A stretch of DNA of 64,000 nucleotides from Isoetes taiwanensis (lineage: Eukaryota; Streptophyta; Lycopodiopsida; Isoetales; Isoetaceae), in the NCBI GenBank assembly GCA_021234155.1, contig JAJEKV010000130.1:1097962-1161961 (forward strand), written 5' to 3'. Position 1 is the first letter of the stretch; the number at the start of each line of letters is the position of its first letter. The notes beneath the pieces are model-generated. The model saw only the letters and a program-made list of their open reading frames with translations. It ran no database searches and was not told the DNA's origin. Positions 4,380 through 64,000 of this stretch are shown here, one piece after another. A program made the position numbers and the translations under genes.

Positions 4380-4400
4380 CACTACAAGGGCTAATGGGGG

Positions 4401-8744: not shown

Positions 8745-8756
8745 ATAATCCTACCT

Positions 8757-20952: not shown

Positions 20953-21230
20953 GATCCAGCCCGACAAAATAATGTTTTACGACCAGCAAGCAGAGCGGAG
21001 CAGTGCAAGGCTGACAAAATACAGAGAAGAAAATGTAGAGAGATGCCTTAGCTCAAAATCTTCTATTATAAATTTTTAGTGTAAGTGTTGGACCCAGCCC
21101 GACAAAATAATGTTTTACGACCAGCAAGCAGAGCGGAGCAGTGTAGAGAGATGCCTTATAGCTCAAAATCTTCTATTATAAATTTTTAGTGTAAGTGTTG
21201 GACCCAGCCCTAAATTGGGCGGCTAGGATT
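20953..21230. repeat. Tandem duplication with CCAGCCCGACAAAATAATG unit
   Basis: Units start at 20953 and 21091, and a third partial one at 21201. They share GACAAAATAATGTTTTACGA, the CAGCAAGCAGAGCGGAGCAG word, and an AGAGATGCCTTA...TCTTCTATTATAAATTT tail. The first unit is about 29 bp longer because of an internal segment containing a second CTGACAAAATAC. The third breaks off into GACCCAGCCCTAAATTGGGC. Confidence 0.8.
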
Positions 21231-31673: not shown

Positions 31674-32082
31674 ATAAAGAAAAAGGCAAAACTTCAACAT
31701 GATGATATTTTAGGTTGCGATTCTGAGCCATGGGACGTTTCCAAATAAGCATGAACAACTAATTTTCAGAGCCGTAGGTATGGTCGCTATCACCGTGGAT
31801 CGTACCTTGAGGCACGCGTCCGCTCTCTTTCCCCCCTCGAATGGTGACACCATCTGCAATCATGGCACATGTGCCCCTCGACCATCTGTGTAGGCCAGGT
31901 GTCCTCGATGGGACCCCGGCTTCCAGCAACCATCAGCGTTATATCTCTGGCGTGATCTCAGGTGCCAGACATCGCGGGCAATCGCGGATCTTGACTTGAT
32001 GACCAAGAATAGAGTTCTAAAGAGAAAAGCTGCATATTTGCATCATCATGGCAAAAAAGAGGTGTTAATTTGAAGAAAAATC
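31674..32082. other. Spacer
   Basis: Mixed composition with no gene or repeat recognised. Confidence 0.4.
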
Positions 32083-33525
32083 TTATATTATAATGTTTTA
32101 GCGTGTTGTATGAAGCCCTAATTTGAATGGCTAAGATCATTTAAGTGCATCCAAAGGCCCAGATTTATCGCACAAATTCCCATACCTGTGAATGGTCAAG
32201 CTTTAATATCTTATGGGGAAAGGGGAAAAGAAAAGGAGGAAAAGAAAATGGAGAATGTGAAGGCTAAAAAGGCAAGGGAAAAAAGGAAAAAACAGAAAAG
32301 GGAAAAGGGAAGGGGAAAAAGGGCATGGAAAAAGGAATGAGGGAAAAGATGAAAAAGGAAAAAATAAAGGGGAAAAAACTAAGATGAAAAAATGGAAAGG
32401 AAAAAAAAAAAAAAAAGGGCGGGAAATGGGAAGGGAAAAAGGGCATGGGGAAAAGGCTTAAGAGGAAAAGGTGGGCAAAGGAGGAAAAGAGAATAGAAGA
32501 AGGGAATAGTAAAGGGGTGGGGAGAAGAGAAGCCAAAAAAGCCGCATGGAAAAAGGAAAAGAAAAAAAAAGATAAGGGACGAGGAAAGGGGGAAAGGAAC
32601 TTGGGGAAAAGGGCATCAAAGGAGGGGGAAGAAAAAAAGGTGAAGAAGGGAAAAAAAGGAAGAAAAAAAAAAGCATGAGAAAAGGGAGAGAAAAAAGGGC
32701 ATGTGAAAAGGAGAAGAGGGAAAGGGTAAGGAAAGGGGAAAAGACATGGGAAATGAAAAAGGAAAAAGGAAAAAGTAAAGGAAAAAAGTTAGGGGGAAGG
32801 AAGGAAATGGGCACTGGAAAAGGGAAGAGAAAAGGATGGGATGGAGAGGAGAAAAAGGGAAGGGAAGAAGGGGAACATGGAAAGAATAAGGAGAAAAAAG
32901 GAAGGGAAAAATGGGAATAAGAAAAGGACTGACGGAGAGAAGGCAAGGAAAAATAGCATGGGAAAAAAGGATAGGGAAAGGCAAAAGAAAAAAAGGAGAG
33001 ACGAGAAGGGTGGAAGGGAATCTAGGAAAAAAGGGGATGAGGAAACAGAGAAGGGAAGGGAGAAAGGGCACGGGAAGAGGGAATCTAAAAAGGAAGGGGA
33101 AAGGGCAGAAAAAAGGGGGGAAGAGAAAAGATAAAGAAAAAGGGAAGCAAAAAAGAGAATATTAAAAGGAAAGGGAAAAACTGGGAAGGAGAAGGGTGTA
33201 AAAAGACCTAAAAGGGTACAGTGGAAAAAGGGAAGAGGAAGAATGTGTTGAAAAGGGCATGGGAAAGGGAAAAGTCAAAAAAAAAAAATGAAGGGAAAAG
33301 GGGGGAAGAAAGGGGAAAAGGGTGGGAAAAGGAAAAGGAAAAAGTTCATTGAGAAAAATGAAGGTGAAAAAAAAAAAAAAAAAAAGAGAAAGAAGAAAAG
33401 GAAATGTTTAAGAAAAATAAGAAAAAAGGAAAAGGAAAATATGGAAAAGGAGGAAAAGGAGGAAGAAACAAAGGGTGAAAGTGGGGTAGAGAAAATGGCA
33501 GAGGGAAAGAGAAATGGCGTCAAAT
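32083..33525 (+). repeat. Polypurine element A (head plus 1.3-kb purine tract)
   Basis: The head 32083-32212 starts TTATATTATAATGTTTTAGC and includes AGCCCTAATTTGAATGGCTA, GTGCATCC and AATGGTCAAGCTTTAATATC. From 32213 to about 33525 the plus strand is almost all A and G, broken mainly by isolated T and by GCATG. GGGCATGG-type motifs occur near 32321, 32441, 32541, 32611, 32671, 32697, 32741, 32871, 32951, 33066 and 33255. Long open frames here on either strand are composition artefacts. The head recurs at elements C and D, so this is a dispersed element, not a simple microsatellite. Confidence 0.8.
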
Positions 33526-33970
33526 ACTTTAACAATGGAGTACTTTTGGATTATTCATAATACATTTCTCTCATTACCACAAGCAGTATCATTTATGTGT
33601 TCTCAACGACCAAAGAACGCTGGTACCATTCCTAGTATTGATTATGGTGATATTTTGTGCTCTGCTCATGGTGAGATTTATTGAAATATTTTTGGAAAAA
33701 TTCCAAATATACCCTTGAATTTGTTCAAATTTCTAATTTTGCTCTTCAAGTTTCCTTAATTCCAAAAATGCCCTCAATTAACCAAACCCAACCAGCCGAA
33801 AGAATAGTCGTTAATGTGACGGATAGGTTCATGACAGTTAAAGGAAAAAGGCGCAAAGGTAGAATTTCGTCGGTGAAGAATTCTGAGAGAGAATTTTGTC
33901 TGAAAATCTTGGAAGCTATTGACCGATCCAACCTATTGGCCTTTGCATGATATAAGGTAAGATTTTCTCT
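33526..33970. other. Spacer with a MITE-like arm
   Basis: 33690-33780 holds AATATACCCTTGAATTTG and CCAAAAATGCCCTCAATT, similar to the arms of the 31.5-kb MITE, but no inverted partner was seen. No gene. Confidence 0.35.
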
Positions 33971-34734
33971 TCATTTCATTTCGTTGAAAAACTTTAGGTA
34001 GCTCTGAAGAATCGACAAACGCAGCGTGGTGGAAAAAATGTGGACCTTGATTTGAGGTTGAGCGTGGCCATTGAGGATAGCCAATGCCTCGAATTCTTCC
34101 ATGTGAGCTTGGGCACTTTGATCAAGAGGCTTTCCTTTGGTATTCCCAAAAGTGGGATACGTCATCTTAAGATTTTGAACAGGAGATGGAGGCGGACCTT
34201 GCGTGTAGATAGGTGGAGCATAAGCTGGAATATAGCTTTGTGGTACAGCCATGGGCTAGGAACAAGGCGTATAGAGACGTAAAACCCGGGCGAGAGAGGA
34301 ACGGCCCCGCTGGCTTAAGGATCGGGGAGCCTCATTTAACTTGAGATCGCTGAGATCAGAGATTTGACCGTGATGCTGAAAGGATGGGGAGGACTGATAT
34401 TCATGGACATGGGGAGGACCGAAAAAGACACGAGGATAGCCCATCCCCGCAGGAGGAGAAGAAGGTTACGAAGGCAAGGGAGTGTGACCCGAAGGGATAT
34501 GAATGTAAGTGGCGATTGGGGTTGAGAGCAATGCTTGCAAACAGGGGGAGGCCCTGGGCAAGAATGGACACGAGGGGTAGGTGGTGCCGACTGAGCTCTT
34601 GAGCGGACACGGCCCCCCTCAATATCAGAGTTAGGATCGTACATGTCGCGAGCAGCTTCTCGATGATGATGGCGCTCCAATCGTGCCGCCATTTGGCAAA
34701 GGAGTTCTTCAGGAGTGAAAGCACGAGCAGACAT
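33971..34734 (-). pseudogene. LTR-retrotransposon gag remnant
   Basis: It starts MSARAFTPEELLCQMAARLE at 34734, with REAARDMYDPNSD and a Pro-rich linker. After a frameshift it continues MGYPRVFFGPPHVHEYQSSP (34444) to an in-frame TAG at 34256, then MAVPQSYIPAYAPPIYTQGP and MTYPTFGNTKGKPLDQSAQA. The Pro/Tyr-rich region followed by TFGNTKG...AHMEEFEALA resembles the start of the capsid domain in plant Ty3/gypsy gag. It is cut off at 33971, with no protease, RT or integrase to the left and no LTR or primer-binding site identified to the right. Gag normally forms the element's particle; this copy is dead. Confidence 0.55.
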
Positions 34735-35250
34735 ATTGAGAAGAGAGAAAAGAGAATGAGACCCAGCAGCGGCGACAGTGTTTAGGGTCTGGGTTCGGGA
34801 TCTCCTGCAAGACAGCCCTCTATGAGGACCCTTGGATAAAATAAGGGAATCCTGGCTGAGTGTCACGCCGGATTTTGCAAGCGAACAGAAAGAAAAGATA
34901 AGACTGAATCAACACACAACAATGAAGATAAATCTGGCTTCCTTGATATCAATGTGCATACAAAAGCTCTGTCTAATAACAGATACATTGTTGTCTAAAG
35001 ATCAGAGGGGATATTAATTGCGTCTGTCTACTTAATGTCTATCTAGCAACAAAGGATCCGAAGGAATATCGGTTTTAGTAATAACAGATTCATGGTTCTC
35101 CAAACATCAGATGGCATATAAATTTTGTATGTCAGTCAAGAAAAGAGAGATTGTTTCTGCAAATAAAAGAAACAAATGCCTATGATTAAGGTCATTGGTT
35201 CAGGCCCAAGTTAAAGTGCTTACCTAAACAATCTAGGTGCAGGAAATTCT

Positions 35251-35562
35251 TCAAGCAGCCTCCCCATTTTCCTTAAGTCTAACGGATGCCCTGCATCCGA
35301 CAAAGCCCCTGCCAAGCTGTGTGCGAATGGATCTAATGTAAGGTATGCAATGGAGTAACCAGCTATAGTTTATGGCAGGGGACGATACCTGTAGGTTCCC
35401 CCAGTTGTAATAGCCAGTAAAACAATAGCCCACTGAGTCCTTAGCAAACAGAGCAACACTTCCCTTCTGGTTGAACTCAAGGTAATAAGGGTACGCCGCC
35501 CAGACTTGAAGTTTATAAAAGGGATGCAAAGTGGCATTGTGGAGCAGAGTAAAGAAGACCAT
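35251..35562 (-). CDS. Hypothetical exon-like ORF
   Basis: The frame reads MVFFTLLHNATLHPFYKLQV, then WAAYPYYLEFNQKGSVALFA, then GYCFTGYYNWGNLQ, and at that point the bases are CTACAG|GTATCG, a possible donor. It then runs to a stop at 35251. The aromatic-rich composition looks protein-like, but I recognise no family. An overlapping minus-strand frame (35591-35370) is also open, so chance is possible. Nearest neighbour is the gag remnant, same strand, 0.5 kb downstream. Confidence 0.25.
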   Translation of the reverse strand: MVFFTLLHNATLHPFYKLQVWAAYPYYLEFNQKGSVALFAKDSVGYCFTGYYNWGNLQVSSPAINYSWLLHCIPYIRSIRTQLGRGFVGCRASVRLKENGEAA

Positions 35563-35599
35563 GTTCCGCCAAGCATCCGGGCTACCGCCATAGTCGAAA

Positions 35600-38500
35600 A
35601 GCTTTAGAATCTACGCTTCCTCCAAAGCCTACATCCGCCACCGCCATACCAACAATTTAGCATCTAGAGCGCCTGGAAGCCGATGACGCCGCTTTGAGGG
35701 CTGAATTTTTTTTCCCAAGCGGAGTCTCGCCTTAGATATAAACCATCCAATTAATCTAGCCTTAGATCTAAGCCATCCGATCTAGGGCTGGATCCTTCTC
35801 TAGGACTTACAGATAAGCTGGTTTTCTGCTGCCGGAACCATCTCCACTGGATCACCGAGCCTAAAATGATGCCTTCCTCTGCAAGCGGAATCCTAAGCAG
35901 TCCTAAATTGATTTTCCACATCCACGACCTTCCTTTATTGGCTCCCTAAATTGACTGAAGAGGATCTACCTGGAGGATTCATGACTCGCCAATCCTCATG
36001 ATCTACACGCTTTAACCTCGCTTAAAGGATTCACCAAGGAAATCCTCCTAGTGGCAGTGTGTCGGGCTTTATAGGCCCGCCGCATGCTTTGATTGCACTT
36101 TATGGGCCCCATTGTGTTTTGCGTAACTTCCTTGTATCGAAGAATCTACTGGGTGAACTTCCCGGCCGCTCCTCAGTCAGCCAGAGCTGAGAGAAGGCCA
36201 CTCACATCGGGACCGCTTAGGTCTCAATTAGATTTTAATAACCAAAGCAAATGCCATCCGCCATTTATGCTACCGCATTTTAGAGAAAATACGGCCGCTA
36301 ACTGCATCGTGAGCCAGTACTATTTTGGAATTTTGACTAGAAATTTGGTTTACGCTTACTTTAGTAAATTGGATATTTCCCAACTTGACTGAATATCGTG
36401 AGCGCGAACCCCCTGCATGGGCCACCTCCTCTACTAACGCCTCTACAAAGCTGATTTATAGAATTTATGAATGAAAATGACATCTTAACGTTTCAGCGGC
36501 TATACGAGCATTCTGCTGAAAATGCGTAGTATTTAGTTACACAATTCCTTGTATGCTCATATATTTTAATAAATATGTCAAATAATGGTAATACACCTTC
36601 TTCTTGGCTATTTAGACTTCTAATATACGCCCGTACAACGCCAAGTACCTTTTATTGTGGGTCTTTTAATAAATCATCAAAACCACTTCAATCCTTCTAA
36701 GTATAAATAAATCTGAAGGTGTACCGCTTAAATTCCATTTTCAAATTTAGTATATTAAAATGCCCATGTTGTCTTGCGGAACCTAATTGATACTTCAAAA
36801 GCCTCAGTAAAACAACAAGAATTTATTATTAGTCAAATACCGCGTTAAACACGCCGCCACAAATACACTGCGCATGATCATCTTTTTGTTATTTTTATCC
36901 ATATTAAGGTCGATCACAAGCCATGGTAATTTCATGGCTGCAAATCCAAATCCTCTATAAGTGATGTTTTAAGACGAGTATTGACATTACTGGGCAAGCC
37001 AATCATGGGCTGGGGTGCAATGCTGCTGAAGGAAAGTGTTCACATCAGGCTAAGACTAATTGATATAGAGTCATTTGGAGTGAATTCAGTAATTTCCAGC
37101 GCTTTTTCTAAAAACACATCTCGTGATTCTATCTCTCAGTGCTTGGCTGTGAGGGGACCTTGGTTTAAATAAGCAAAACACTTGTTTCTGCTTGGTTGCT
37201 CCTGCCGCCTCTCTGCATTTTTGGCGACCTTTGCTTAAGCAGTATGGCCTCATCTCCATAACCCGATCTCTATGGATCCTGGTCTTTTCCCACGCAAGAG
37301 AGAGAAGTCGACTCATATTTTAGGGAATATGAAGTTGAATGGTACTCGGCTTTTGTGGCCAATATTTATTAGGTGAACTTTCTTTGCATTCGCCATTCGC
37401 CAACAAAACCATTTCGATATAATTAGTAGATAATTGTTTTGAGTTATAGAAGTAGCCACTGCGAGAAGTCGTGATGTCTTTAGCCCACCATTGTACAAAA
37501 CCATGACGCTCACCTGCCATTTTGTGACGGTTTTATTTACATGTCTCGGTATACTTTCACATCCAAGAATACAAAAATATGATTTGTATCAAATGTGCTG
37601 AGGGTGGCCCGAGGCAAGGTAGAGCTTGAGAATATGATTCTATGGATCCTGCTCATATTCTACTCTATTTTTCTTTTTATATATGAAAGTTTAACTGGTC
37701 TTATATTTTACTTCGCATTTAACCCAACATCTTGCACTTTGTCACAAATCGCCTAATGAACTCATTTCCGAATCTTGGCGGGGATCTAACATATCCCAAT
37801 AAAGTAACCTTGAAACTAGATATACTTTCACCAGGAATTAACCAGTTATGGTTGTGTTATAGATTTTATACTCAGTGCTATATGGTATTTTAGTTATTGA
37901 TTGCGTGATGTATTTAGTCAGAACCTAACATTCCATATTATTAAATGAATAAGAAAATCACGCACCTCCTATGGCCTTGCTTAAATCCCGCCATTAAAGT
38001 ATGCAACTTCACTGCTCTTTGCAAGTTATTTTTCTTATGTGGCCCAAATTTTTTTCTCTAATATGTTGCAAGACTAGTGAAGATGGGTACTGTATGCAAC
38101 ATCATTGAAACTGTTCAATTTTATGGTTTCTGTTGAATTGATCTTTAGCTTAAAAGCGATTTTCATTCATAGCTGGGTGACTCGCGACTTTTTTTGGGAT
38201 AGCTTTTGTTATATCTATATTTTGAGTTCATATCGCTCTGGTCGTATTTCCTGATTTTTATGCACCTTCCTCGCCAGTGTGGCCTCTCATCTCTTCATGC
38301 AACCTGTTTCTTTTGGTGGATCCTTGGCCCTTCCAGCCCTTATAGGCTCCATCTATATTTCTTTAGTCATGTGTTTTGACTTGGTACTTTTTATTTATAT
38401 TTTCATATCGTTACCACTAACAAATAAAACCACGACCAGACAATTACTCGAAATACAGCCAGTCACTCAGAGAAGGAACGAGTCTTATTGCACTAGCTTC

Positions 38501-39697
38501 CTAAGGTCACTTACTTAATCTTTACTTTTGTGACTTGGTTTTATTTATATTTCGTTCTTTAGATAACCGCCACATCCGAGCTCCATTATCTCCACCGTAC
38601 GCTGCACTCACTGCGTAGTTTGGTACCAACCTACCACAATGAGGGTTTAGATTCCAATTTCAAGAAAGTAATTGGGTGCCACTGAGACAAATCGGATCGC
38701 ATGCATCAAAATTTCTCTCGAAGTCAAGAGGAGAGAGAGAGACGGCCCAATGTAGACTCCTCTCGATCTAATCCAAAAGCTAGTAGCCTATTTATGCTTC
38801 TTGTTTATCAAAATTTTCCAACTCTATTTTGTATATATGGTTCAGTCCTATTTATAATGAGAATTTGATATTTAAAACATGTTTATGAATACTCTTGCAA
38901 GATCACACCAAAAGGCTCCCTGGAAAAATATTACTTTTACCCCAACTTCATTCTTTTCCAAGTATTAGCTTCATTATGACAAAATACCTCTGCTTACAAC
39001 TTATGTGAAACAAAAGCAATGACCTTGTAACATATCAACTCAGAACAGCAGCATTTGGGATAGCATAAAGAGGAAGCATATGCTCTTTGTAATTCTCAAC
39101 CAGTACTGCGTACATCTAACATTATTCCAGGTTATTGTTGCTAAAATATATCCTAAGTAAAAAGCAAATATTGTGGAAGGAAGAAAATGAAAGAGAGCGA
39201 TACTTATAACTAAATAAGATAACAGGTTCATTCTTCTCTGAAAATCTCAAAGATTACCTTCAAATTGTAATTTAACCAACTTATAGACCGCTTATACAAT
39301 GTAACCGCCAAAGTACTGCACTGCTGAATTGGCCGTTGTGAAAGTTATTATTCTTACCTTAGGAGCTGAATCACTGATGTAACCGCTCATTGTCATCTTC
39401 GCCGCTTGCAAGCGGGCTTCCATGGGGTTTTAATTTGGTCTATTCCATTTCATAGACCAGATGAAGCTTCTCTTGTCACTTTAGTCTCCTAATGTCTGCC
39501 GCTTGATTTTACCTCCCCGACACCGCTTGGCTCGTGATTCTATTGTTGTATTGTAGGGAAATGGCCATATTGTATAAGTTGGAATTTATATGGACGAAAC
39601 TCATTCAGCCAGACTTTTTCGCTAAATCTAATACGATAGAAACCAAGCCCAAAGATTACTTGATTCTAAGAGGCTTCTAAAAAGCGCATCGCATACC
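35600..39697. other. Long spacer, no gene seen
   Basis: 35700-35800 holds GATGG-type words (CCATCCGATCTAGGGCTGG) that are the reverse of a motif shared with 21201 and the polypurine heads. The rest is AT-rich and contains only short, composition-driven ORFs on both strands. Confidence 0.4.
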
Positions 39698-40180
39698 CTT
39701 CCTCCATTTCCTTTTGGTTTTTGTCATATTCCACATTTTTCCCCATTTCCCCATTACCACTTTCTTTTTTTCCTTTCCCATTTTTTTCTATTTTTTCCTA
39801 CACATCTTCTTCTTCCTTTTAACCCTCCACTTTCCTTCCTTTTCTTTTCTCATTTGATTTTTTTTCTCTTTTCCTTTTTATCCTTTTTCCCGCTTTTGCT
39901 TTATTTTTTTCCCTTTTTTCCTTCTTTCCTCTGAATTTTCCTTCTCTTTTACTTTTCCTCTATCCCCTTTTTTTTTGCCTTTTTTTTCCCACCTTTCTAT
40001 GTGCCTTCTTTCCCATCCTTTCCTCTTATCCTCAAATTTTTCTCGCTTCTTTCCATTTCCTCCCTTTCTTTTGTGCCTATTTTCCTTACCTTTCCCCTTT
40101 CCCGCCTCTACTTTCCTCATCTTTTTCTCTGCACCTCTTTCTGCTTTCCCCATGCCCTTTTTTCCTTCTCCTCCAAGGTT
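39698..40180 (-). repeat. Polypurine element B (tract only, about 480 bp)
   Basis: The plus strand is almost pure C/T; purines run on the minus strand. GCATGGGGAAAG-type punctuation is present (plus CCCCATGCCCTTTTTTCC near 40150). No head like those of A, C and D is recognisable on the expected (right) side, so it may be a fragment or a diverged copy. Confidence 0.65.
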
Positions 40181-43100
40181 CTATGGGTAAAACTCTTTGT
40201 TTATGGGTATATTCCGTGTGCATATGCCGCCCAGCATATGCTAGTGGCTAAGTAAACGCCATGACGCCTGTAAATGTCGTGTCATCCAACTCATCTTAAA
40301 AGTATGAATGTAATCTGCTTAGTCTCAGGAAATTGCCATCGGTATTAAAGTAAGGGCTGAGCGATTTATCGGATTATATTCTTTCCGGGCTCTTGCCAAC
40401 CTTGATCTTGTTCAACAAAGGTTCTTTGATAGACAATAGAAGCTGTATTTGCCTGGCCGGATGGTAATATAATCGTACTTTACCATTGTTAGTAATTTTT
40501 AATTGGGTCAGAATGATTTTTCGTTTCTGAAAATGGAGAGACCAAAATCCTCACCATTACCTGATAAACACTAATGGGTAAATCTTACCATGTATGTTTG
40601 ATACAGACATACTACAAATGCATCTCCTGATTGGTAGGGAATACGCTGTATTTGTGGCCGCTACAGCAATGTAGCAGGGTTTATTTGGGTATTTTTTTCT
40701 TGTTTGTATTTGCGGTGTGCGAGGCTCGTTTTTCTTTTTATTTTTTCCTCAATGTACCAGTGCCGAGAGAAATATTATCCATTTAGCAGATCAGTTGAAT
40801 ATGAAATGAATTACTTTGTTGTCATTGTCAGATAAGCTATCGCAAATGGTCTATCTCGGATGGCATCTTTGCTGATTCAGTGTCCAGGCTATTATCTTGC
40901 TACAATGTTGATTTGATTCATTGCAAAAACCCCATGGAGTTGACCTTCAAGAGTTCGCTGAAGACAGAGGAAGCCGCTACAACTGCTTTCCGCAGACGGT
41001 GTACCTTTTACCTGCTCAAATTCCTGCCCCGAGCATAATAAAGAAGTAAATTTTAAGCGTTAGAGACCGGTGGCAAGTGCGTTCGATGAAGAAGCGGCAT
41101 CTAAACAAAGAGGTCTCTTCAGATTGATTAGGCTCACTACGCCGCATCTCTTTAAGCACCGGATCATATACCTAGTTCAACGGTCCAAAATATGTAACTG
41201 GAGATCAGATAGGAGATGCACTTCCCATTTTATTAATTCTTGATCTGCGCCGTTACGCAAACATTAAAAGCTTGTAGCTTGGAAACATTTCACCACGATG
41301 CGTATTTTGGTGCAAATGCCAAAACTCATTGTTTCAACTTACACCGCCTCATTTGGGCAATACAAGTGACGTAAACGAAAAGGTATGTGTAAAATATCTC
41401 TGGTAGCCGAAACAAATGAATAAATAGATGCTTTCTCATTGATTTTTCTAACTTAAATCTAGTTTCATCATATAAAGCCGGTGCTGAGAGTACGGTCTCA
41501 ATGATTGCTTGATGTACCTGTGTCGTGTTTCTTTAATTTTCCAAAGATGCATCAAGCTCGCTTGCAAACCGATAGCATTACTTACAAAGATTTTGGTATA
41601 ATGCTTATATGTCATCTAGAAATTACGTGGACGAGAAAAGATTATAGCGATATGAGGAAGATGGTACGTTTTAAGTGAGGCACTTCCGGCTTTTGCGACG
41701 CTGACCGGCTGTTAAAGAGGTCCTAAAGAGGAATGCCACAGCTGGCCGTCTCCGCGTCTGCGGAAACTGGCTTAATCCTTCTGGGCTTAAGTGCTCGGCT
41801 GGCGCAGGCCATGGCGTATGAGTATCAAATTATGGAATGTAGTATACGGGAATATATTTGATAAGCAACTGTGAATTTGTTTCGAGTAAACTTGACCTTC
41901 GCAACCAAACTATGCAAATGCGACTGCGCTTACCGTGGCACAATTCGTGGCGATGCAGTTAGGATGATTCGTTTTGATGCTGATGTCATGCCGCAGGTGA
42001 ACCCAATTTCGCAATGATGCAACGTCACAGCTGGATTCCTGTGCCTGTAACCTGGCCTGACATTACACATAAATGCTGTTATTTTGAAACTCGATAACCG
42101 AAAATCAGACTTGAAAACCGTGACTTATCGGAAAAAGCCAGCTCCACGGCTACCCAAGATTATTAAAGAAGAAAATATTGAAGCTTTGATGTTAATGCCT
42201 ATTAATGCTTGACAGGCCAGAGCATCTGAAAATTTAATTTCAATGCAAACCTAAACATCTTCAAGACCATTTGATCGCGACGGTGATGGATTTGTGTAAC
42301 TAACTTTTTCATATATTCTTGTCCGGCCAATAAGCAGATGAAGCCTCGCGATTCTAACAGGCAATGAGCAGTATCATGGTTTTAGAGGCATATAGCAAAC
42401 CATGTGCCGCCAGCGCCATTTGGGTACGTGCCAAAAGCGCCACCTATTTTGCAATATTTGATAAACGCTTCAATTATAGGGAATCTGATTTCAAGCAAAA
42501 TCATTGTTATTGTTCTAAATATGCAAATTCTCGGCTGCTTATTATTTAGCTGCCTTCGCCTTCAATATCAAAGATATGAATTTCCTCAATGAACATCCAC
42601 TAGAGTACGTACCACCATGCTAAATTCGTGGCTGCGTAACGCCCTATAGCACTCTTACGACCTTGAGTCCGTAGATTACATTCATCTTCCACATTTGTTA
42701 CCAACCCATCCAAAGCGATGCACGCTCATATTACCTAACCTTCTAACCGATGTAAGAGGGGATGAGATAATGCCAGCGCTTTGTCATGAAAATACCGCGC
42801 GATGAGCTTATAGGTTAACGATGACACTCAAAGCCGCAGGAGCCACAACCCGTAATGGTTCATAAATTGATGCAATCTTCAAAATTTTGACGCATTTTCA
42901 CCAAACGCGCTGAATGCAAATTGGGTTTGCGTCACGATTGAATATACGTTCATGTACATCCACAATCTACTAGTAAGCATCTTCAAAATCAGCCGCTATT
43001 TGGTTTTAAATCTTGGACAGACGGTGCCTTTCAATCATGGCTGGGATGCTGTTATGATGCAAAGGCAATTCCAGGATTCGTTTGACTGCGCAACTTCGTG

Positions 43101-46100: not shown

Positions 46101-46916
46101 AAACAAGACGATAGGATATAGCTTGCATTTCTTTCCGCTGGTTTCCAGGGTGCGCATTTTAGAAAAGCCTTGTAGCTAAGTGTTTATTAGTTATATCATA
46201 GAATATACAGCAAATCAATACTCCCAGGCACAACGATTACCTACCTCGTACATATGATTGTCTAAATCCCATATATTCAAGATCACTTCAAAATTGAGAT
46301 ATACCACCGCTAAAAATGTCGAACATTAATAATGGATTCAACCTTTGTAGTTTTTAGAACCAAACAAATGCCCCACACCAGTGTTCATTTTTATGTCCTT
46401 TATCCCCTAATTTAGTACTAAATCAATAGCGTGGTTGGGAAAATCCTGGGAGGCAAATTATTTCAAAATTTAGAAACAAAGGCCGAAAGTAAAATCAATT
46501 CTTTGAATCTTGGAGAACTGCCAAGTAAGTGCGTATGCTCCTGAGCCCCGACAGCCGAAAATCACCAAAAACAGTAAATCTAAATTAATGGTCTTGTTTC
46601 GCCTTTCGGAAATATGTTCCAAAGTTTGAATGGAACCAATGATTGTGTTTTTTCCATTGTGTCATTCAATTTTGCGGGGAGTTGTTTACGATGGAATAAG
46701 CTCCGCCTATGAATTATGAATTGGGTATGAAAACAGCATTCCACCGCCGCTGCCTATCTCATTATTTTAAGGTTCTTTATGGGATAAGGAAAACCTCATC
46801 CAGCGGGTTTGTGGTATATTCCAAGTATATGTCGCGATATGCCCTAAAACATGACTCTAGCGTGACGAAGCCATTTCATTTCGGTCACTAGAGGGCAACC
46901 TTCCGCGTATGAGCGC
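40181..46916. other. Long spacer, no gene seen
   Basis: AT-rich single-copy-looking sequence. All open frames are short and lack domain-like patterns. No RNA gene, terminal repeat or LTR was recognised. Confidence 0.4.
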
Positions 46917-48125
46917 ACTCCTGAGCTTTTTTCTTTTTCATGGCTTTTCTTTATTCTTTTTCTACCTTTTATGGGTTCCATTTTTCCTCTCTTTTTCCTA
47001 ATTCTCTTTCTTTTTCCACTTTTCTCCGCCTTTCCCTCACTCTCTTCCCTTTTCCTATGTCCTTTCTCCCCTTCCTCCTCTTTCACCCTTTGCTCACCTC
47101 TTTCTCCTTTTTCTTTTCTTCGTCAAGCTCTCTCTTTAGTGATGGACTTTTTCCTTTCCGCTTTCCATTCCTCGAATTTTTTCCTCTTTTCTATTACCTG
47201 CAAATTTTTATCTTTCCTTCACTTCATTTTTTCCTTCCTTCCTTCCTGGCTTCCTAATATTTTTTTCTTTTTTTCTTTTTTTTTTTATGTGTCTATTTAT
47301 TTTCCACCCTTTCCCCTTCCCCTTCTTTCCATGTCTCGCCTTTTTTTCTCTTTTTCACTTTTCCTTCTCTCTGTTTTTCCTTCCCTTTCTATTTCCTTCC
47401 TTTTGTCTAATGCCTTTTTTCTTTAGGTTCTATTTCTCCCTTTTGGTTCTCCATTTTTCGCTTTCACATTCCCCTTTTCACGCATGCCTCCTTTTTCTCT
47501 TCCTTCTTTTTGTTCTTCCTTTCCATTTTTTTTCTCTATTTCCTCTTCCTAACTTTTTCACTTTTTTCCTTTTTCTGCGCCCTTCCTCTCTCTATTTCCC
47601 TCTTTTTCTCTTTTTCCTATGCTATTTTCCTTCCCTTTTTCGCCTTTTTCCTCTCTTTTTTTTCTCTTTTTTCCACAGTTCTTTCCCTTCCTCATGCTCT
47701 TTTTTCTCCTTCTTTCCTTTCTTTTTGACCTTTCTTTCTCCCACTTCTCTCCCCTTTTCTTTCATGCCATTTCCTCCCCTCACTTCCCCTCGTATTCTTT
47801 CTCGGTGCTCTCCTTTCTCCCTCCTTTGAATTTTTCTTTTTCTCTTTTTCCTTCTTTTCCTACATTTGTCTCTTTCTGATCCTTTTCTCCTTTTCCTCTC
47901 TTTTCCCCTGGGCTTCTTTTGCCCTTTTTATACTGCCTCTTCCTTTTTCCTTTTCCTCTCTTTTTTCTTTTTACTCCTTTTCTCAGAGATCAAAATATGA
48001 CCAATCACGCAGTGAGTAAAGCAAAGAAAATCTCGCCTTGATGCATCTTAGATGATTCTCATGATCCAAATTAGGCCTAGCTGCATTCATAGACTTATGG
48101 CATAACATTATAATATAAAGATGGA
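46917..48125 (-). repeat. Polypurine element C (1.07-kb tract plus head)
   Basis: Plus-strand C/T tract at 46917-47985. On the minus strand the head 48125-47985 reads TTATATTATAATGTTATGCC, then AGGCCTAATTTGGATCATGA, GATGCATC and GATTGGTCATATTTTGATCT before the purines start. This is the same order of words as element A's head, in inverted orientation. Tract punctuation includes CATGCC and CATGTC words. Confidence 0.75.
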
Positions 48126-51100
48126 GTTCCAAATTCTGTTTCTTCACCTATGAACTATCAAAATGCTTGATGAGGCGTAAAACAAGACAAGCGAAAGTAA
48201 ATAATTCAGGTATCCATCCAAATTTTAGTATCATTAAGTGCCTAATAGTACTCCGCCAAACCTGATTTCCGCCATCCGCCACGTCCTAATGCGCCCATCT
48301 TTAGTGCCTCGCGACCCGACGCAGTTCCGTGAATAATGTTGTCTACTCGCTCTTTAAACAGTAGTCATCCGCCGCCCGCGTATTTATAAGTAGATCTCTC
48401 GATTTAGACAATAACATCATACGTCAAATCTATACCTCCTTCCTACTCTGCCTCAGTTCGCATGAAGCCTAATCAATCGCAATGCTGCCATCATCCAACA
48501 TCATAATCCCAAGCGCAATATCGGCGAAATAATAAAACTTTGAGTGAAAAACCTTTTTCTTGGTTTATAGCTATAATCCCGTATTTTCATGTGATAATGA
48601 TTTGTAAGAGATTACGTTAATAAATACCAAATAATACGCGATTCTTTATGCAATCAAAGCTCTTTGCCAAAAATCTCTATCGGTTATTTATTACTTTATA
48701 CTTACGCCGTAAAATTTCTAACCTCTGCACGGCTTCGTGGTATCTAAAGGTCAAAAGAGGTTACAATACCTATATATATCCGTAATTTCTTTTTTGATGG
48801 TGTTTCATTTGCTAATTTTGTATAAAGTTATGCACCTTCTCTTTCTAACTGGGAATAGCGAATGTATAAGTGAAAGATCCCAAGATTGCATAAGAATGGG
48901 CCATGGTGCTATGTTTATGAATGAAATGGCTAAATAATTCCAAATCTTCATCTCGAATATCGGTGCTCTCTATAAATGATGATATATCATAACCCAAAGA
49001 TGAGAATTCTCAAAAGACCTTCCAATGAAAGAGTCAATCAAAATGCACATATCCTAACACGAGAAATATAGATAGTACTCTCTCGGCGGCTAATTCTTCT
49101 AGGAAATGGCGCGGCGTAGACAAAGAATGATTGCGCTGAACCTTACATCGTCGCGATTATAAAACCTCTGGTATCTGTGAATAAATGATATCTGCAAGTT
49201 AACTATATCTACACAATTCTATGGAGCAAACAATCTCGCAGAAGAGATGAGCATGGTAGACCATACACCAAAACAACAACTATGCGTATTGTATGGTATG
49301 TCACTATTTCAGCAGCGATTGATTTGCACCAGAGCGAAGAGTTTCCGCTGTTTGTTTAGTACACAACTGGCTGTTAGCGAGCCTAGTGATGGGGGAAATG
49401 ATCGCCGTACTGGATGCTGATGAGACTTCAAAGGCTGGGAGGTTATGATGGGCAGCGTATCACGCATAAGATAAGTAATTGTAGTGAATGACAGTCAAAA
49501 AGTCAAGGTGAGAGGCAGAGAGAAAGAAGAGTGGAAATGTTTGGGTGACTTAATGCCAGCTTGCTGCTACTGTCACCGGAGGAAGGTGGCATTTGCAAGT
49601 ATAATCTAGTGTTAGTTTATAAATTCATAGGTTAGAAATTGCTGCGATTCTATTTTATCCAAAATTTCTAAATAAAGGTATACATGGATTTGGGGTAGCA
49701 ATAGCTTCGAATAATTCATTAATTCAATGCCTAAACGATGAAGGAGAAGCTGCCAAAAGTTGGTAGACATGCACGTCAGAGTTCCTGATGCATCGCTTTT
49801 CACTATCATGCCCCTCGAGTCAGCTATCTTCTCATTGTCTAGCATCATCACGCACGCAGCTGTTTTCCCTGGTAAATCTTCTATGCTGTAGTTTTACCCC
49901 GTAGAATGACAACAGCTCTATTTACGGTCCTATGACTTGGTCTGTGACGCTAAAAAATCTATTCTATTCTATCTCATTTGTTAAACCATGTGGATCGGCG
50001 GCAGAGCATGATGAGAGGCTCGTGATGTACATCGGGCCAGGATGCATAATTATTTAACTATAGGTTTGTTAATCACTAGGTTCTGTTGAGGCAGCCACCA
50101 TTTCACCCTTGATTTCCTGAGCGCATCAATACCGGATAAGGAATTCATAAATCCAAATGATGACGTTCACCCAATAAATCGGACATTGACTGTTTAAATA
50201 GGCCGCGGCCGGATAAAACTTTACTTATCCCATGAGGAGGATTCAATTTACGCTTCCGGAACAAGTAATACTAAATAACTTAGTCTTTAAACCATCTGAT
50301 TTCGTGACCTCTTTCCTTTAAAGGACCCACAAAGTTTTGTGAAGTATCGAGATATATAGCTGGTCACAATTATTAATCTCTAAATCTATGTATATCGCTG
50401 GCTCACTGCGGACCTTGCCCTAACTGGGCAGCACATCCGTAGTGTTTCTCTGTTTATTTCGACTCGTTTTGGGAGCGGTCCTAAATAGGAACGCCACCTA
50501 CTGTACTTATTGCTAGTTGATGCCGCCAGCCGCATTGTGATGACAAGAAAAGAGAACCGGCATTCTGGGATGCATGCCTTCATTTTCATCAACCATCAAT
50601 TTTGAGTTCCTTTCTATTCTATCGACCACCCAGTAAGTTACTAATCTGATCCTAATGGGGCTGAGCGCATCCGTGTAATGCCTCTTTTATGTAGATTCAC
50701 CGAGGTTTATTATTTCAACTTCGCATCAACCGCGTTTTTCAATCAGCGTCTATAATCGATTTCCTTTCGCCAGATTTTGCCTGAGAAACCTCTTCATGTT
50801 TCCTCTTTCATTGATCAAAATTCACCTCTATAGATAGATCCAATCCCGCATACACAAAGTCTCCAAGCTATCGCCTATTTTGTTTTTCTTCAGCATGCCC
50901 TTCTAAAAGTATAAGTTCTTAGCTTTGATGCGCTAAAACTGATGTGAGCTAAGAGGCCACAGGAACCTTCGTGAAAGTGAGAGGTTTTAGGTTTCTTCCC
51001 CACTATAGAGGTCATATCTCTTTACCTAACCCATACTTACAAACAAAGTCCAAAATTCTCCGATACACCGCTTGCAACCAAGGAATAGGTATAGGAGGTG

Positions 51101-54100
51101 CCCTTCTACCTCCAATTCCTTCCAACGCCTCTATTGCAGGTTAACACGTACTTTACCCTGATAGTTTCAATTTGCCCTCTTTAATTAGGCTCCACTCTGC
51201 CTTGACAACGCACCCAAGAACTCTGTAAAGTTATTTCAAAATGCATACCACCATAAGTACATTCTAGTCCAAATTAATGCCACCAGAGGACATGGTCCAT
51301 TAGAGTGGCTTTTTGTGGTCTACTGAATGGTCGGGGTCTATTATGGCCAAAATTCATCATTAACTTAAAAATCTTATAGTAACTCTTCCCATCGGTCACC
51401 GTAAAACGACTCTGTGGGCGTAGCATCAACCGTAGCCAAACTTTAAAATTTGGCACGTTATTCTAAAATAGATTGTGTTGAAATTATTGTATTTCTTGAG
51501 TTTAGATTACTAAAATGCCCTTATGGAGTTTCAACATATGCACTGGTAATACACAAACCTCAGGCATTTAGTTTTCCTGTGCCACAGACCCATCCAATAA
51601 AAGTTTTAAAGTTTAATTTGTGGTCAAGTGCTACCCCAGATATTTCCTCGGCTTAGCCGCGGGACGGTCCGTGAGACTTCGCCGCACTTTTTGAGTTCTT
51701 AGTGTTTTAATCGTGCCGGGGTCCTTTCTGATAATATTTTATTTTTTTCTATTCTTTCTTACGATTTGTGTAGATCCTATGTCCAAAGCACCGGCCTGAG
51801 GAATTTTTTCTATTCCCAGCCATGTGCTGACCCAGAGGTGACTTCCATTGCGTGTATGAAGCATGACGCTGGCGATTTCTCATGATCCTGTTTACCTCCC
51901 TTTGATAAAGATCGTACCGTCTACCATATCCAAACTGTACCAGCAGCTTCGTCGTAGACGTTTTCCTACCTGTGTAAATATATTAGTCGCCTAGGTCATA
52001 TATCCGCTAGTTGAAATCCCCCCATCCAAACTCTTTTTATTTATAAGCCTCCAATGATCCGCTCTAATACATCTAAGTATCCCCAGAAAGTGAAGAGGCA
52101 ATGCATAGTGTCTTGCCGCCTCTTTCTCCTATGGGCTCCTAACGGAAGGCAATAATGTTAGAATACCAACAACAAATACATCTAACTACTACATGGCAGT
52201 ACACCTGTATATCCATAGATACAGTCATGATGCCAAATTATGCTATAAAACACATGGGAGTCTATAATGCTCAAACTTTATATGTAGTGACTGAGTGGTT
52301 GGGCCATAAGATAGAGTAGACTGTGAGATTAAATAAATTAAGGGCTAAGCAGGTATTAAATGGCTAGGTTGACTTACCTCCATCCGCCTTCTCGGTATAC
52401 TCTTTGCAAAGTGACGGGCTGGAATCTGCTCCCGCGGATCTATAGTCCGCTTTCGCAGGACGTAATCCTATGGCGCATCACCTTATTGGGACTACTAAAG
52501 CCAAAATTCCTCGCCTGATGAGCGAAGGCCAGTTCCCCTTCCCGAAACGCAGTAGCCCTACGTGGGCTGCTTAAAGACCGCGCGCCATACATGATCCATA
52601 TGATATGTCGGCGGCCCTGCACGGGAGCCCAACATTTATTGATAACATTGCATTACATGACTGCTAAGTGTCATCCAGTATGTTCCAAGCCTTGGCGCAT
52701 ATCAAAGAGAGTTTCAAAATAAACCTTGATCTTTATCTGCAGTGCCGCGCCGTTACCTACAAACAGAAGGACAACCCTGAGACGTGAGCACCTCCGCCAC
52801 CACAACCCAGGAAAATCGCTTTATCCACTTTTTCGGGAAAGCCCGAAGTCTTCCAGATTATATCACTGATGACCTTATTTGGCGTTATGCCCAGAAAGCA
52901 TAGAGTCTAAGTTGATCCACAACGGATCCGCCTTGCTGATGATGTTCTATTCTTATTCTTCCGGCGTATCAATCTCATGTCTCAACTGTCTTGCCAATAG
53001 CATTCATATCGATTTTGATAGAAGGATAAATCTAAGATTCGCAACCTGCATCTCACCATACTGATCAAATGTCCGGGCATTGTGAGAATGTGGAACTCCA
53101 AAGTAGCGCCAGAGAAAGGACAGAGTATATGTGCAAACAATGGTAAACTTATGATTGTGCTTATTAAAATAGCTTCCATAAATGGCATCCAGCCACACAT
53201 CAAATAATGAATAAGACTTATTTACTTACTAATAAAGTTACCGCTAGCCAAAAGTTGTTAGGATTTTCACCCAAACGCAAGGATATGTGTATTGAAGCCG
53301 CCACAAAGATACCTTGCAGAGAATAGGCAAGATGAAAAATAGGCTCTCCGTCTCTTCATGGTCCGAGCAGGATTCTAACTCCTGAGATTTCTAGGCTGAA
53401 TCTCCACGCAGGAACCGCATACAACCTTGTCTTCTAAATACATTTAACATCAAGAACATTACTGCATCTAACACATGCAATCTACGTCTCGTAAAACATC
53501 ACGCAAATTTTAAGGCAATGAACAACATCGTAGCCATTTCAAAAGACGGACTACAAAGAGATAGTTATTGGGTTGATTTATAAATAAACAAAACATGTAT
53601 CAGTAGAAAGAACAAGATAATAAACGAATAATCCATAATATCTTGGCCATGTCCCCAAAGTAATATCACATATCAAAGTAAATATTATGAGCTTCTAAAA
53701 GTTCTAAGCAATGCTTACTTTATCCAACATCAGCTTTAAGCTTGGCAATAATCTCAAATCCCATCTAGTTTTACTTCTTTTCCTACTACTCTTTAAGTAA
53801 AATCAAGTGATCTATAATTCCTTCAAAATATATGATGTAGAATATATCTCAATCACTTAAGCGAATTTTACGTACGATTATTTGATGATAAGAACTTAGA
53901 AGATGAATATCCTTGCAGCTTGTGGGCCCATCGAAACCTCAAGCACGTATATGTATATAAAATGCCGCCACAGCTTGGCAGATTCTTCTAATTCAAAAAA
54001 TAAAAACATTGAGGTTCATCCAAACTATCTTGAGGGCTAGTGTAAAACAATTTGGCTTCCAAATTCTACCTCGCATTGTACATCCGGCACGATCTTATTT

Positions 54101-55585
54101 GTTTAAATTCGTCCAGTTGGTCTTCCTCGGCTTTTACCCATACTAATTCCATCTCTCTGGAGCATGTACCCAGACTTAATGAATCCAAATTCGCCCTACC
54201 GCGAAGCACTACCGCAGACGTGTCCCATTTGAACGCTCGGCATTAAGCAATTAATTTAAAAACAGACCAAAATGCCACTACTTAAAAACAGAGGATCAAA
54301 AGCTCCTTTACATCCTCGCTTTAAAAAGATCATGAAAGCAATGCAAAAGAGGAAAACATCTGGTGAGATTTCCTACGGTTGGTATCATGGATCTTGCGAG
54401 CATGCTACAAAATATTAAATATTGTACAGAGCAGCCACTCTAGAAGTTTTGGATATTAGGTAATTATCTCCCATTGTCTAAGACTGCCCAATTACCGCAG
54501 ATCTTTACGATATTTACGCATCGGGCAGACTTCCATTCTGTGCTGCACGAACGAAGCGCTTTTGCAGAATGTATTATACAGTTAGTTTTTGATATCGTGG
54601 CCCTCTCCGCTGCTGAGATTGAGTGGCTAGCCGGTGCCTCCCACGAGGTCGTGATAAATACTCCAAGGTCCCGCTGGTTCGCTTCCAAATTCAGGGTTGC
54701 TACCGTAAAACTACCAGCCAGAGGTTGTTTGTTTGTAAAGAATTTTCAGATGTATGCAGTTAAGAAAAATTGATCACGTACAACGAATGAGAGAATGTGT
54801 CCTCAATAGACAATACCTCATGGCTATAGCTATGCTATTGGTGTTCGAAAGAAACCGAGGAGGTAGCCGCTTCAATAAAAATCTCTACTCAAACAGCATA
54901 CGCAAAGATGATCAAACTGGATATCAGAGACACCCAGTTTTCCTCCATTCGACCCTTTGTTCAAATCTAAGAGCATTGTGAAAGGATCTCGGTACCCAAA
55001 CGCCATTATTACAAATTAGATTTTATCAAACGAAGCTAGCCGTATCCATAAGATTGTTGTTGTAAATAACGCCTCCACTTCTCCATTCGCGAAGATCTGC
55101 ACCGGTGAAAGTGTGATGATAGTGCCGAGCAGTTATGTACCCGTGATTTTTCCTGGTTAAAAATCTTTTAATTCCAAATGACGCAAAAACTGAGCGACAT
55201 AGATAGAATATCCACTTGCCAGTAAGAAAGGCAGTTATCTTTCTATAACCGCCGTAATTCTTTGCTGGCGCGCAGAAACCGTCGCAGAAATCGGCAAACC
55301 ACTACAACAAAAGAAGATCAAAAGCACAAGAAAATATTAGAAAAAAAATGGACTAAAACGCACGACCTCCAAAACACAATCCATTATCTAAAATAGTCCC
55401 CGCGAGGAAGAGGTACCGATGCCCGCGGGCGCTCCGTAATAAAGTCCAAAGCCTACCATTTTGGGTAAGAAGAGGAAAGGTCTCATTGAAAGTGGCTTAG
55501 TAGAGTTTCGGCATGAAATGTACATTAGCATTTATTATGTTCCTCATTATAATGAGGTTGCGATTCTAATGCAAATGAAGATAAT
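48126..55585. other. Long spacer, no gene seen
   Basis: AT-rich, with scattered CCGCC words. Short ORFs at 49.6, 50.4, 52.4, 53.0 and 54.5 kb show no family resemblance. 51480-51530 has a lone AAAATGCCCTTATGGAGT, similar to MITE arms. Confidence 0.4.
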
Positions 55586-55589
55586 TCAT

Positions 55590-57345
55590 AATATAAATGT
55601 TACAGGCTGTAAGCGCAGTTTCAGTGAATGAAACCTTAATTTGAATGGGTCGGCATCATCTGATTCATCCGTAGCGTTTGATTGACAGTAGACGCACTAC
55701 CAACAATCGCGATTGGTCACGCTCTCATCTCTGCTGGAAAGCGCAAATGAAAAGGAGAAAGTGCCGAAGCGTGGTGAGAGAAATTTAGCGCACAGAAAAG
55801 GAAAAGGAAAGCATGGAATCATCCATATGTAGGCAGTAAATGGCAAAGCAAACAGAAAAGGGGTTTAAGAGAGAATCGAAGGGGCAAAAAGGCATGGGGA
55901 AAAGGTGGAAAAGTAAAATAGTAAGGAAAAGGGTGGGGATAAGATGAACAGTAAAGGTACAAAACAAAAGGCAGTGAACCCGGGGAAGTAAGGGTACAGG
56001 AAGGAGTGAAGAGATATGGAAAAGGTAAAATGGAAAGGGCATGAAAAGTAAGGAAAGATAGTATAAGAAAAGGAGGAAAATGAAGTGAGAAAAAGCACGG
56101 CGCGGAGGAGAAAAGCATGGCGCTGAAGCGATAATGCAGCATGTACAGTGCCATTTCATATGGCATGAAGGACAAATGCAGACAGGAAGGGAGAAAAGAT
56201 AGCGTAAGGGAAACGATCAAGGAAAACGCAGCGCCGGCACCGGAGGAAAGCAGCGACGCTATTGGGGAGGGGAAAAGTTAGTAAGGCAAAATAGTAAGGG
56301 AAAGGTAGAGAAGAAAGAAAAAGAAGGGGAAAGGGGAAGGTGGAACCCAGGTAAAGGTCAAGAAAGAGTAAAACCAGAAAAGAAGGAAGGGCATGAGCAG
56401 TGCCGAAGAGGAAAAACGTAAGAAAAGCAAGGGAAAAGTAGTAAGGGGCAAGAGAGAAAGGGTGGGGAAATGAGGAAAATGGGTAGACAGGAATTAAGAG
56501 AATAAAACAAATGCGCAAAAAGGCGCATGGAAAAGGGAAAAGGAAAAGGAAAGGAAGGGAGGCGTGAACAGGAAAGGATCGGCAGTACGATAAAACGGGA
56601 AAGAAAAAATCTATCAAGAAGTAAAGGAAACGTGGAAAGGCGTGGAAAGGGAAAAGGGAAGCAGGGATGGATGGAGGGAGAAGGTGCCATTACGAGGAAA
56701 GGAAAAGAGAAAAGAAAAGGAAGGGCTGGTGCCAGCGAAAATTGCACGAAGAGTGGTGTATAGGGAAGTAAGGAGGTACGAATTTAGAAAGGTTAGGAAA
56801 GAATAGTGGGAAGGCATGTGGAAAGGGAAGAAAAGAAAAATGGAAAGAGGGTATGAGAGAGAGAATGGAAAAAGAAATGAGGAAAAAGAGAAAGGGAAGG
56901 AGAAAGGGAATACGGAAAGGGAAAGAGGGAAAGGACGAGGAGATGGAAAAGAGAAGGTAAAAAGGCATGGAAAACGGGAGGAGAAAAGAAATGGAAGGGC
57001 AAGGCACACAAAAAGGAGGAACAGAGGGAAATAGAGGGCGGCGCATGTGGGAAGAGATATGGAAAGCCGCTGCTGAAAAGAGTAAAAGGTTGAAAATATT
57101 ACGGAAAAGGTGGGGAAAAGAGGAAGGTATAAAAGAGAAAGGGAAGGGAAGGCTGGCAAAGAAAAAAGAGAAGAGGGTAAGGCGTGAGAAGGAGCAGTGC
57201 AAGGGAAGGGAAAAGGGGTTATTTGAACAGTGGAAGGGGGAAATGGTGCCGACAAGCACGCTGTCACGCATATATTTGCGCAGCAGCGCAGAGAAAATAA
57301 GGAAAATGAACACGGGATAGAGCGTGGAAAAGTGGAAATGGGATG
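55590..57345 (+). repeat. Polypurine element D (head plus 1.6-kb purine tract)
   Basis: The head 55590-55745 reads AATATAAATGTTACAGGCTG, then ACCTTAATTTGAATGGGTCG, GATTCATCCG and GATTGGTCACGCTCTCATCT, colinear with A and C. The purine tract runs from about 55745 to 57345, with GGCATGG words near 55890, 56035, 56810 and 56965. It has more pyrimidine interruptions (GCAGTG, GGCGC) than A and is probably older. Confidence 0.75.
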
Positions 57346-63300: not shown

Positions 63301-63368
63301 CCTCATCTTGAGGTTTGGTGTTACTAAACTATCATTCGTTATTCCGCGCGAGGTAAATGCTCCATGGA
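57346..63368. other. Long spacer, no gene seen
   Basis: AT-rich. A slightly more GC-balanced patch at 60340-60720 contains AAGGCTACGCTACTACTCGC and GCTCGAGTAGGCG, wording I associate with plant organelle DNA, but no organellar gene is recognisable. Confidence 0.35.
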
Positions 63369-63560
63369 TTATAACCTACGTATCGTAGGAAATCCTAAAC
63401 TTTGTATTTTATCTCTCGTTATGGGAAGCAATGTGAATAAAACAAATATAAAAGCCAGAACTATGAAAAATAAAGATAGATCATGAGGTTCTTCTATAAC
63501 CCATTTTGGGGTTCCTCGCGGACGCCAAAAATTTCTTCCTTCCTGAGATTGCTGGTCCAT
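63369..63560 (-). CDS. Small single-pass membrane ORF, 63 residues
   Basis: It starts MDQQSQEGRNFWRPRGTPKW at 63560, a polar N-terminus rich in W, R and P. One clear hydrophobic segment LSLFFIVLAFIFVLFTLLPI follows, then a basic tail with RDKIQSLGF and a stop at 63369. The organisation (soluble WRPRGTPKW motif, membrane helix, basic tail) is more protein-like than other short frames nearby. I cannot name the family. It could be a real microprotein, a fragment of organellar origin, or chance. Confidence 0.3.
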   Translation of the reverse strand: MDQQSQEGRNFWRPRGTPKWVIEEPHDLSLFFIVLAFIFVLFTLLPITRDKIQSLGFPTIRRL

Positions 63561-64000
63561 ATGGTTTATGATTATTCAAGCAGTTTAACATCCTCTCTAT
63601 CTAATCAGCCGTCGCTGTAGAATTGCATTTTTATTTAATGGTAAAGTTAGCTATTGCCAACCGTAACCTATATGAATCTCCAGCCACCCTTCCTAAAAAT
63701 CTTTCATATATATGCGAAAATCGTTTGTTATCATTGTATAAGTGACACAAATGAATAATAAATGGCACTGGTAATCATAATTTTATGATTTCGAATCGGC
63801 ACTAATTGTTAATTGTGAACTGAAGCAATGGTCCACGCCCACTATATATTCAAATCTTGCTACATAGCAGTATTGCTATTTTTAAATAATCAGCCTGAGA
63901 TCTATGTTGCTAATGAAGCTTGAACCTTATAAAAAATTACAGTTCATCATGAAAGACAAGCTAAATTAGTAATACGTAACTGAACGGGGCGTACATTGAT

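Follow-up and report, generated by a model that had tools for sequence, protein, structure and literature searches.

Are kilobase stretches of DNA in which one strand is almost wholly purine repeats that grew where they stand, or copies of a unit that moves? This question is raised by a 64,000-nucleotide stretch of the Isoetes taiwanensis genome (GCA_021234155.1, contig JAJEKV010000130.1, positions 1,097,962 to 1,161,961 of the forward strand; hereafter the window, to which all counts refer), which carries four polypurine tracts, T1 to T4. We propose, with moderate confidence, that T1, T3 and T4 are decayed copies belonging to one non-autonomous subfamily of a DNA transposon family without terminal inverted repeats (TIRs), probably a Helitron-like rolling-circle family, and that their purine body is minisatellite in nature. 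These three tracts have a common head at a conserved spacing, the head typically starts with TC after an A, it has relatives that lack a tract, and one of these relatives interrupts a long interspersed nuclear element (LINE).

We located the tracts with a maximal-segment scan for purine and pyrimidine runs at several penalties. A middling penalty returned exactly four, bearing out the preliminary description of this DNA, which had reported four tracts, two in each orientation; they span 0.48–1.6 kb and are 80–90% purine. Purines lie on the plus strand in T1 (32215–33514, 1300 bp, 89.7% purine) and T4 (55736–57350, 1615 bp, 80.3%), and on the minus strand in T2 (39696–40174, 479 bp, 88.3%) and T3 (46926–47984, 1059 bp, 88.1%). 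The limits of T4 vary with the penalty, from 55845–57218 at the middling to 55736–57350 at the loosest setting, and the strictest breaks it up, leaving pieces 219 and 116 nt long; the loosest setting also adds three weaker segments of 94–319 nt. The longest pure runs measure 39, 29, 37 and 34 nt in T1, T2, T3 and T4, against 22 nt in the sampled remainder (1–32000 and 58001–64000), and from such runs a potential of the tracts to form triplex DNA is plausible. A coding origin was considered, given long minus-strand open reading frames, and rejected, as lag 3 lies outside the eight strongest autocorrelation lags of every tract.

Three tracts are preceded by a head: T1 at 32081–32214 (plus strand), starting with TCTTATATTATAATGTTTTAG directly after an A; T3 at 47985–48121 (minus strand), starting with TCTTTATATTATAATGTTATG after an A; and T4 at 55591–55735 (plus strand), whose extreme 5' end is decayed. 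The T1 head starts at 32081 rather than at 32083, as had been noted before. From head start to tract start the distance is 134, 137 and 145 bp in T1, T3 and T4. All three heads carry, in order and with mismatches, the four words that the preliminary description had named as a colinear head, and they align at the nucleotide level. Pairwise identities are 58, 58 and 45% over 127–134 columns (transversion fractions 0.23, 0.25 and 0.34), and because identity is this low the copies must be old. Scanning both strands of the window tile by tile with the heads detected none at T2. Near two of the heads we also noticed the word AGGTTGCGATTCT, at 31712 and 55555, about 369 nt upstream of the T1 head and about 36 nt upstream of the T4 head; at T4 the word, which was seen by eye, directly follows a hairpin. 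It may be the remnant of an adjacent element.

Several comparisons place the three heads together. With self-matches excluded, T1 and T3 are each other's top-scoring tile (35.0), and the T4 head scores highest against T1 (35.2). In the T1 list a tile at 10351–10700, which has no tract, outranks T4 (34.0 against 30.4), and one at 21151–21500 equals T4. With the T1 head as nhmmer query, the matches are a tract-less site at 10385 (e10; E 2.1e-5), T4 (1.7e-4), a tract-less site at 21169 (e21; 0.0017) and T3 (0.02). Queried singly, the T3 and T4 heads find T1 (E 0.022 and 0.0018) and miss each other. In the reversed window, the best match was E 2.7 with the single heads of T1, T3 and T4, and nothing fell below E 0.41 with any of seven head models. 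Among alignments of 2 kb on the head side, T1–T3 alone exceeded all 60 shuffles; T1–T4 and T3–T4 did not.

The spacing bears on whether the tracts are independent purine minisatellites that grew by chance near similar heads, with no joint unit. That T2 is headless and that six head-like sites, some of them weak, have no tract would fit such an origin. Against it, three of the four tracts begin 134–145 bp past the start of a head in the same orientation, and in a post hoc test none of 200,000 random placements put three of seven heads no more than 150 nt upstream of a correctly stranded tract (the seven leave out the weak matches at 15558 and at 35.8 kb). A unit, GGGCATGGG, is moreover common to the tracts. 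We regard chance association as very improbable.

The head is only in part specific to the purine elements. Its outer 40–60 bp turn up at sites that have no tract, two of them clear (10385 and 21169) and others truncated, whereas the full 135-bp head was found three times in the window, always with a tract. The preliminary description had taken a head found as often without the tract as with it as a sign against its proposal; in this window that is the case for the outer part and not for the full head. The tract-less sites comprise e10 (10385–13694, plus strand), an element of about 3.3 kb with the same 5' terminus; e21a (21169–21263, plus strand), with a truncated duplicate, e21b, at 21059–21103; a truncated head, e20.9 (20925–20964, plus strand); and a fragment at 35763–35812 (minus strand) whose match is confined to the inner part of the outer head. 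A weak 26-bp head-like match at 15558 (minus strand, E 0.06), which also reads TC after A, was dropped as possible LINE coding sequence. With the e10 head as query, e21 (E 5.6e-5) and T1 (E 1.4e-4) are recovered. Built from the three tract heads, a model picks up e21 (E 0.005) and e10 (E 0.008), and one built from three tract-less heads picks up T1 at E 1.1e-10. A five-seed head model, which includes its own matches, served solely to locate sites. Past the first 60–90 bp, e10 and e21 have no further similarity to T1, T3 and T4, and in the 500 nt inward from position 135 their purine content is 45–48%, against 76–90% in the three tract elements. Because the relatives diverge at this point and their bodies are not purine-rich, we treat T1, T3 and T4 as a subfamily and the outer end of the head as the mark of the family.

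TC(T/C) directly after an A opens the heads of T1, T3, e10, e21a, e21b and e20.9. We count these as five cases (T1, T3, e10, e21 and e20.9), e21b being a repeat of e21a and the boundary having been placed from alignments; this start is thus found in five of the six head loci used, the sixth being T4 with its decayed end. Since e20.9 and e21b have a nearby 55-bp duplication in common, the five are imperfectly independent. Upstream of the boundary there is no evident similarity, the e21a and e21b duplicates excepted.

The boundary can also be followed at e10, which lies in the reverse transcriptase gene of a decayed LINE (7331–15500, plus strand) with DUF4283 and weak RVT_1 matches. The LINE frame reads ...RPISLTNVTGFIAARLKPILEEVISNTQSAY (...NTQSAY) right up to the TC of e10 and picks up again near 13650–13700 with ...YLKYSNQLIGLLKLDITKAFE. 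Because the head cuts into this frame, the outer head is best read as the terminus of an inserting element. A DUF4283 match upstream of e10 (E 8e-15) marks the LINE independently, this domain being one that we take to be associated with plant LINEs. The joined flanks stay below the RVT_1 cutoff (E 0.0035 with filler, 0.053 without), scoring 17.5 bits with 12 window residues and one V, 16.0 when an equal number of unknown residues fills the gap and 13.7 when nothing does; given these scores we retain both candidate 3' ends, between about 13645 and 13694.

A copied unit, as the preliminary description had suggested, is supported: the three share a non-repetitive head, they occur in both orientations, and there is no clear similarity outside head and tract. 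On the tail side of T1–T4, no pair exceeded the shuffle maximum (T1–T2 equalled it at 44.0, mean 30.9, 60 shuffles), and scores in longer downstream regions matched the reversed control or exceeded it by a few points; e10–e21 heads aside, the largest excess was 3 (e10–T3, 19 against 16, in A/G-rich sequence). Target-site duplications (TSDs), which were to be looked for at both ends, were sought at T1, T3 and T4 by comparing the upstream 20 nt with 270 nt on the 3' side; the best match was 6 nt at each, with shuffle means of 6.0–6.2. No inverted head was found on the far side of T1, T3, T4 or e10 with the head model in nhmmer on both strands (E <=50), a method that may pass over short TIRs.

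These results speak to a retroposon origin, in which a 5' head and a purine-rich 3' tail would stem from reverse transcription and T2 would be a 5'-truncated copy. The headless T2 and the lack of clear common sequence past the tract agree with it. Yet none of the three headed copies has a TSD above shuffles, e10 and e21 carry the same outer head with no such tail, and to our knowledge purine tails of 0.5–1.6 kb are unlike those of short or long interspersed elements. We consider a retroposon unlikely.

Helitrons are described, in the excerpted text of PMC10741241, as starting with TC after an A and having neither TIRs nor TSDs. The elements are like canonical plant Helitrons in their 5' TC after A, with no TIR seen and no TSD found. 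They differ in that no CTRR with a 3' hairpin was recovered and that RepHel protein was not found in the 21 frames or pieces scanned. The following observations weigh against our proposal. Using CTRR with a hairpin 10–12 nt upstream as the criterion, no Helitron 3' end was recovered at the tracts. CTAG ends lie 121, 38 and 71 nt past the T1, T3 and T4 tracts, with upstream folding energies that rank only 106, 57 and 64 of 330; the base after the T4 CTAG is C, not T; and at T2 no CTAG is reached before 916 nt. A CTRR-hairpin scan over about 1.5 kb gave best scores of 7.0 (T1), 5.5 (T3) and 7.5 (T4), with none of at least 5 at T2, which are unexceptional among 1529 sites. A Pfam scan of 21 frames or pieces, of 110 frames of at least 90 amino acids, yielded no Helitron protein match. 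With the model of tract-less heads, T3 comes up no better than E 1.5 and T4 is missed, and the 3' end of e10 is ambiguous. Decay could account for the failure at the 3' end. Because that end was tested and not found, we make no assignment to Helitrons; working like a Helitron is the most likely mode, and membership of the family is not claimed.

Elsewhere in the window, strong Helitron-like 3' ends (a hairpin, then CTAG followed by T) stand at 4340 (minus strand) and 16682 (plus strand), which head the folding-energy ranking of the 330 CTAG strand-sites (ranks 1 and 2) and suggest that Helitrons are present in this genome. The first lies in one copy (3864–4382) of a duplicate of about 0.5 kb whose other copy (1124–1635) has an altered CTAG; the duplicate overlaps a kinase-like frame (3–1370, minus strand) and is a possible gene capture. 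Just outside the head side of T2, at 40220–40251 and on the strand opposite its purines, a hairpin (8-bp stem) that precedes CTAA is the third-best of the 1529 CTRR sites. The window also holds a PPR match (E 6.6e-12).

The heads could instead be termini of a non-Helitron-like transposon without TIRs, either Replitron-related, with an HUH nuclease, or of an undescribed group, carrying the purine body as cargo. No Helitron 3' end was recovered at T1, T3 and T4, and a Replitron_HUH relic, whose element ends were not found, lies in the same window (17555–17884, minus strand; PF21859, E 3e-9, 37.8 bits against a curated cut-off of 28.5). In the excerpted text of PMC10741241, Replitrons lack TIRs, have TSDs of 2–8 bp and range over green algae, liverworts, mosses, lycophytes and ferns, and not seed plants or hornworts; by eye, a TTA or TA duplication is possible at e10. 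Given that range, the relic, taken with the PPR and DUF4283 matches, suggests in itself that the host is a non-seed land plant. On the other side, the TC start after A marks Helitrons in that same text, and the sole head-like match near the relic is the weak one at 15558, perhaps LINE coding sequence. By eye, e10 shows none of the direct terminal repeats of 5–11 bp that Replitrons carry, no search having been run for them, and at T1, T3 and T4 the upstream 20 nt recur on the 3' side no better than in shuffles. A TIR-less HUH plan would be the feature in common with Replitrons. We hold this origin to be possible though doubtful.

The preliminary description had held that the unit is not a microsatellite, and here we differ, as the body looks like a decayed minisatellite, unevenly so across the tracts. 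The A/G autocorrelation of T1 peaks at lags 13, 14, 7 and 6, with lag 1 higher still (0.141 at lag 13 and 0.104 at lag 14, s.e. 0.028), and a unit AAAAGGGCATGGGAAAAGGG recurs in the purine bodies. At T3 lag 13 is weak (0.069, s.e. 0.031), at T2 and T4 lags 13–14 are not among the eight strongest listed, and T4 peaks at lags 62–63 (0.087 and 0.079, s.e. 0.025), lag 63 being present in T1 too. GGCATGG, reported as common punctuation, occurs exactly in T1 (3), T2 (1) and T4 (2) and is absent from T3. The shorter GGCATG is found 4, 1, 2 and 6 times in T1 to T4, 13 pooled against 1.34 expected under order-1 resampling, and is enriched singly in T1 (p 0.003), T3 (p 0.01) and T4 (p 0.003) and not significantly in T2 (p 0.15). 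Centred on CATG, which is fixed by construction, 25 of 26 sites (one being too close to the edge) give the majority consensus AAAAAAGGGCATGGGAAAAGGGAAAA, also written AAAAAAGGGCATGGGAAAAGGG. GGG runs are in excess in T1 (51 against 29.4, p 0.005) and not significantly so in T2, T3 and T4. Because none of the six tract pairs departs from order-2 resampling by more than 2 s.d. (the top scores being T1–T4, 220 against 191 +/- 16, and T2–T3, 131 against 116 +/- 8), there is no long order common to the tracts. We infer that the bodies resemble a degenerate (AAAAGGG)n/GGGCATGGGAAAA minisatellite, on uneven evidence, with a 13–14 nt period clear in T1 only. In viral contigs, an exact-pattern scan with a body word matched three contigs, in stretches only 48–56% purine, and one with a head pattern matched none.

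Under the favoured Helitron-like reading, the head would be the 5' terminus of the element, recognised by a transposase supplied in trans, and the family would be marked by this terminus rather than by its body. The founder body would have been a minisatellite of the type (A3-5 G2-4)n in which GGGCATGGG recurred; slippage or rolling-circle copying would have lengthened it, and the element would have carried it as cargo. Copies would have inserted in either orientation and decayed afterwards. The tract would still be mostly purine because transversions alone erode purine content. For a once-pure tract decaying neutrally, the head transversion distances predict a pyrimidine content of 4.9% for T1, 19.9% for T3 and 22.7% for T4 (sum 47%), where 10.3, 11.9 and 19.7% are observed (sum 42%). 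Total impurity is thus roughly near the neutral prediction, and for that reason no function or constraint on the tract needs to be assumed. Telling against our proposal, the single fits are poor, T1 having twice the expected pyrimidine and T3 about 0.6 of it, a misfit that the sum masks; the estimate uses about 130 alignment columns and an uncertain alignment of the T4 outer end, from which the misfits may stem.

These figures bear equally on whether the body is kept by function, for example as a triplex or R-loop stretch that exposes single-stranded DNA to an HUH nuclease. The pure runs of up to 29–39 nt, the 80–90% purine of tracts whose heads are only 45–58% identical, and the shortfall of pyrimidine in T3 would suit such a role. 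T1 has more pyrimidine than expected and T4 about as much, e10, which has no tract, inserted as well, and none of the four tracts has a significant excess of G-quadruplex motifs (121 bases in T1 against 54.7 expected, p 0.07; zero in T2, T3 and T4). Retention by function is decidedly unlikely, and very improbable too is the bolder idea of a plant transposon family whose non-autonomous members would be almost wholly kilobase strand-pure purine DNA that aids its own transposition, for instance through such exposure.

The nearest counterparts of the proposed Helitron-like elements are HINE and Cg_HINE, non-autonomous Helentrons of animals (oyster, mite and DINE-1 of Drosophila), in which the excerpted texts of PMC7492417 and PMC4067079 describe a conserved end beside a satellite- or microsatellite-like core. 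T1, T3 and T4 would likewise be non-autonomous, with a conserved 5' end in three copies next to a repeat-like core whose unit is common. HINEs, as those texts present them, live in animals, insert at T-rich targets and carry subterminal inverted repeats and a 3' palindrome. In the elements of this window the core is strand-pure purine, heads that keep their outer end start with TC after an A, no 3' palindrome is established, and no conserved 3' end was found. Among the titles and abstract openings of open-licence papers, we found no Helitron or plant transposon family with a polypurine or purine-rich core. The three elements look like an unusual, purine-only form of known transposons with repeat-filled cores. 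If confirmed genome-wide, they would extend repeat-core rolling-circle elements, described from animals in the papers cited, to a non-seed plant, and as a natural experiment they would let one study the spread and decay of kilobase purine tracts and any disturbance of replication or transcription by them.

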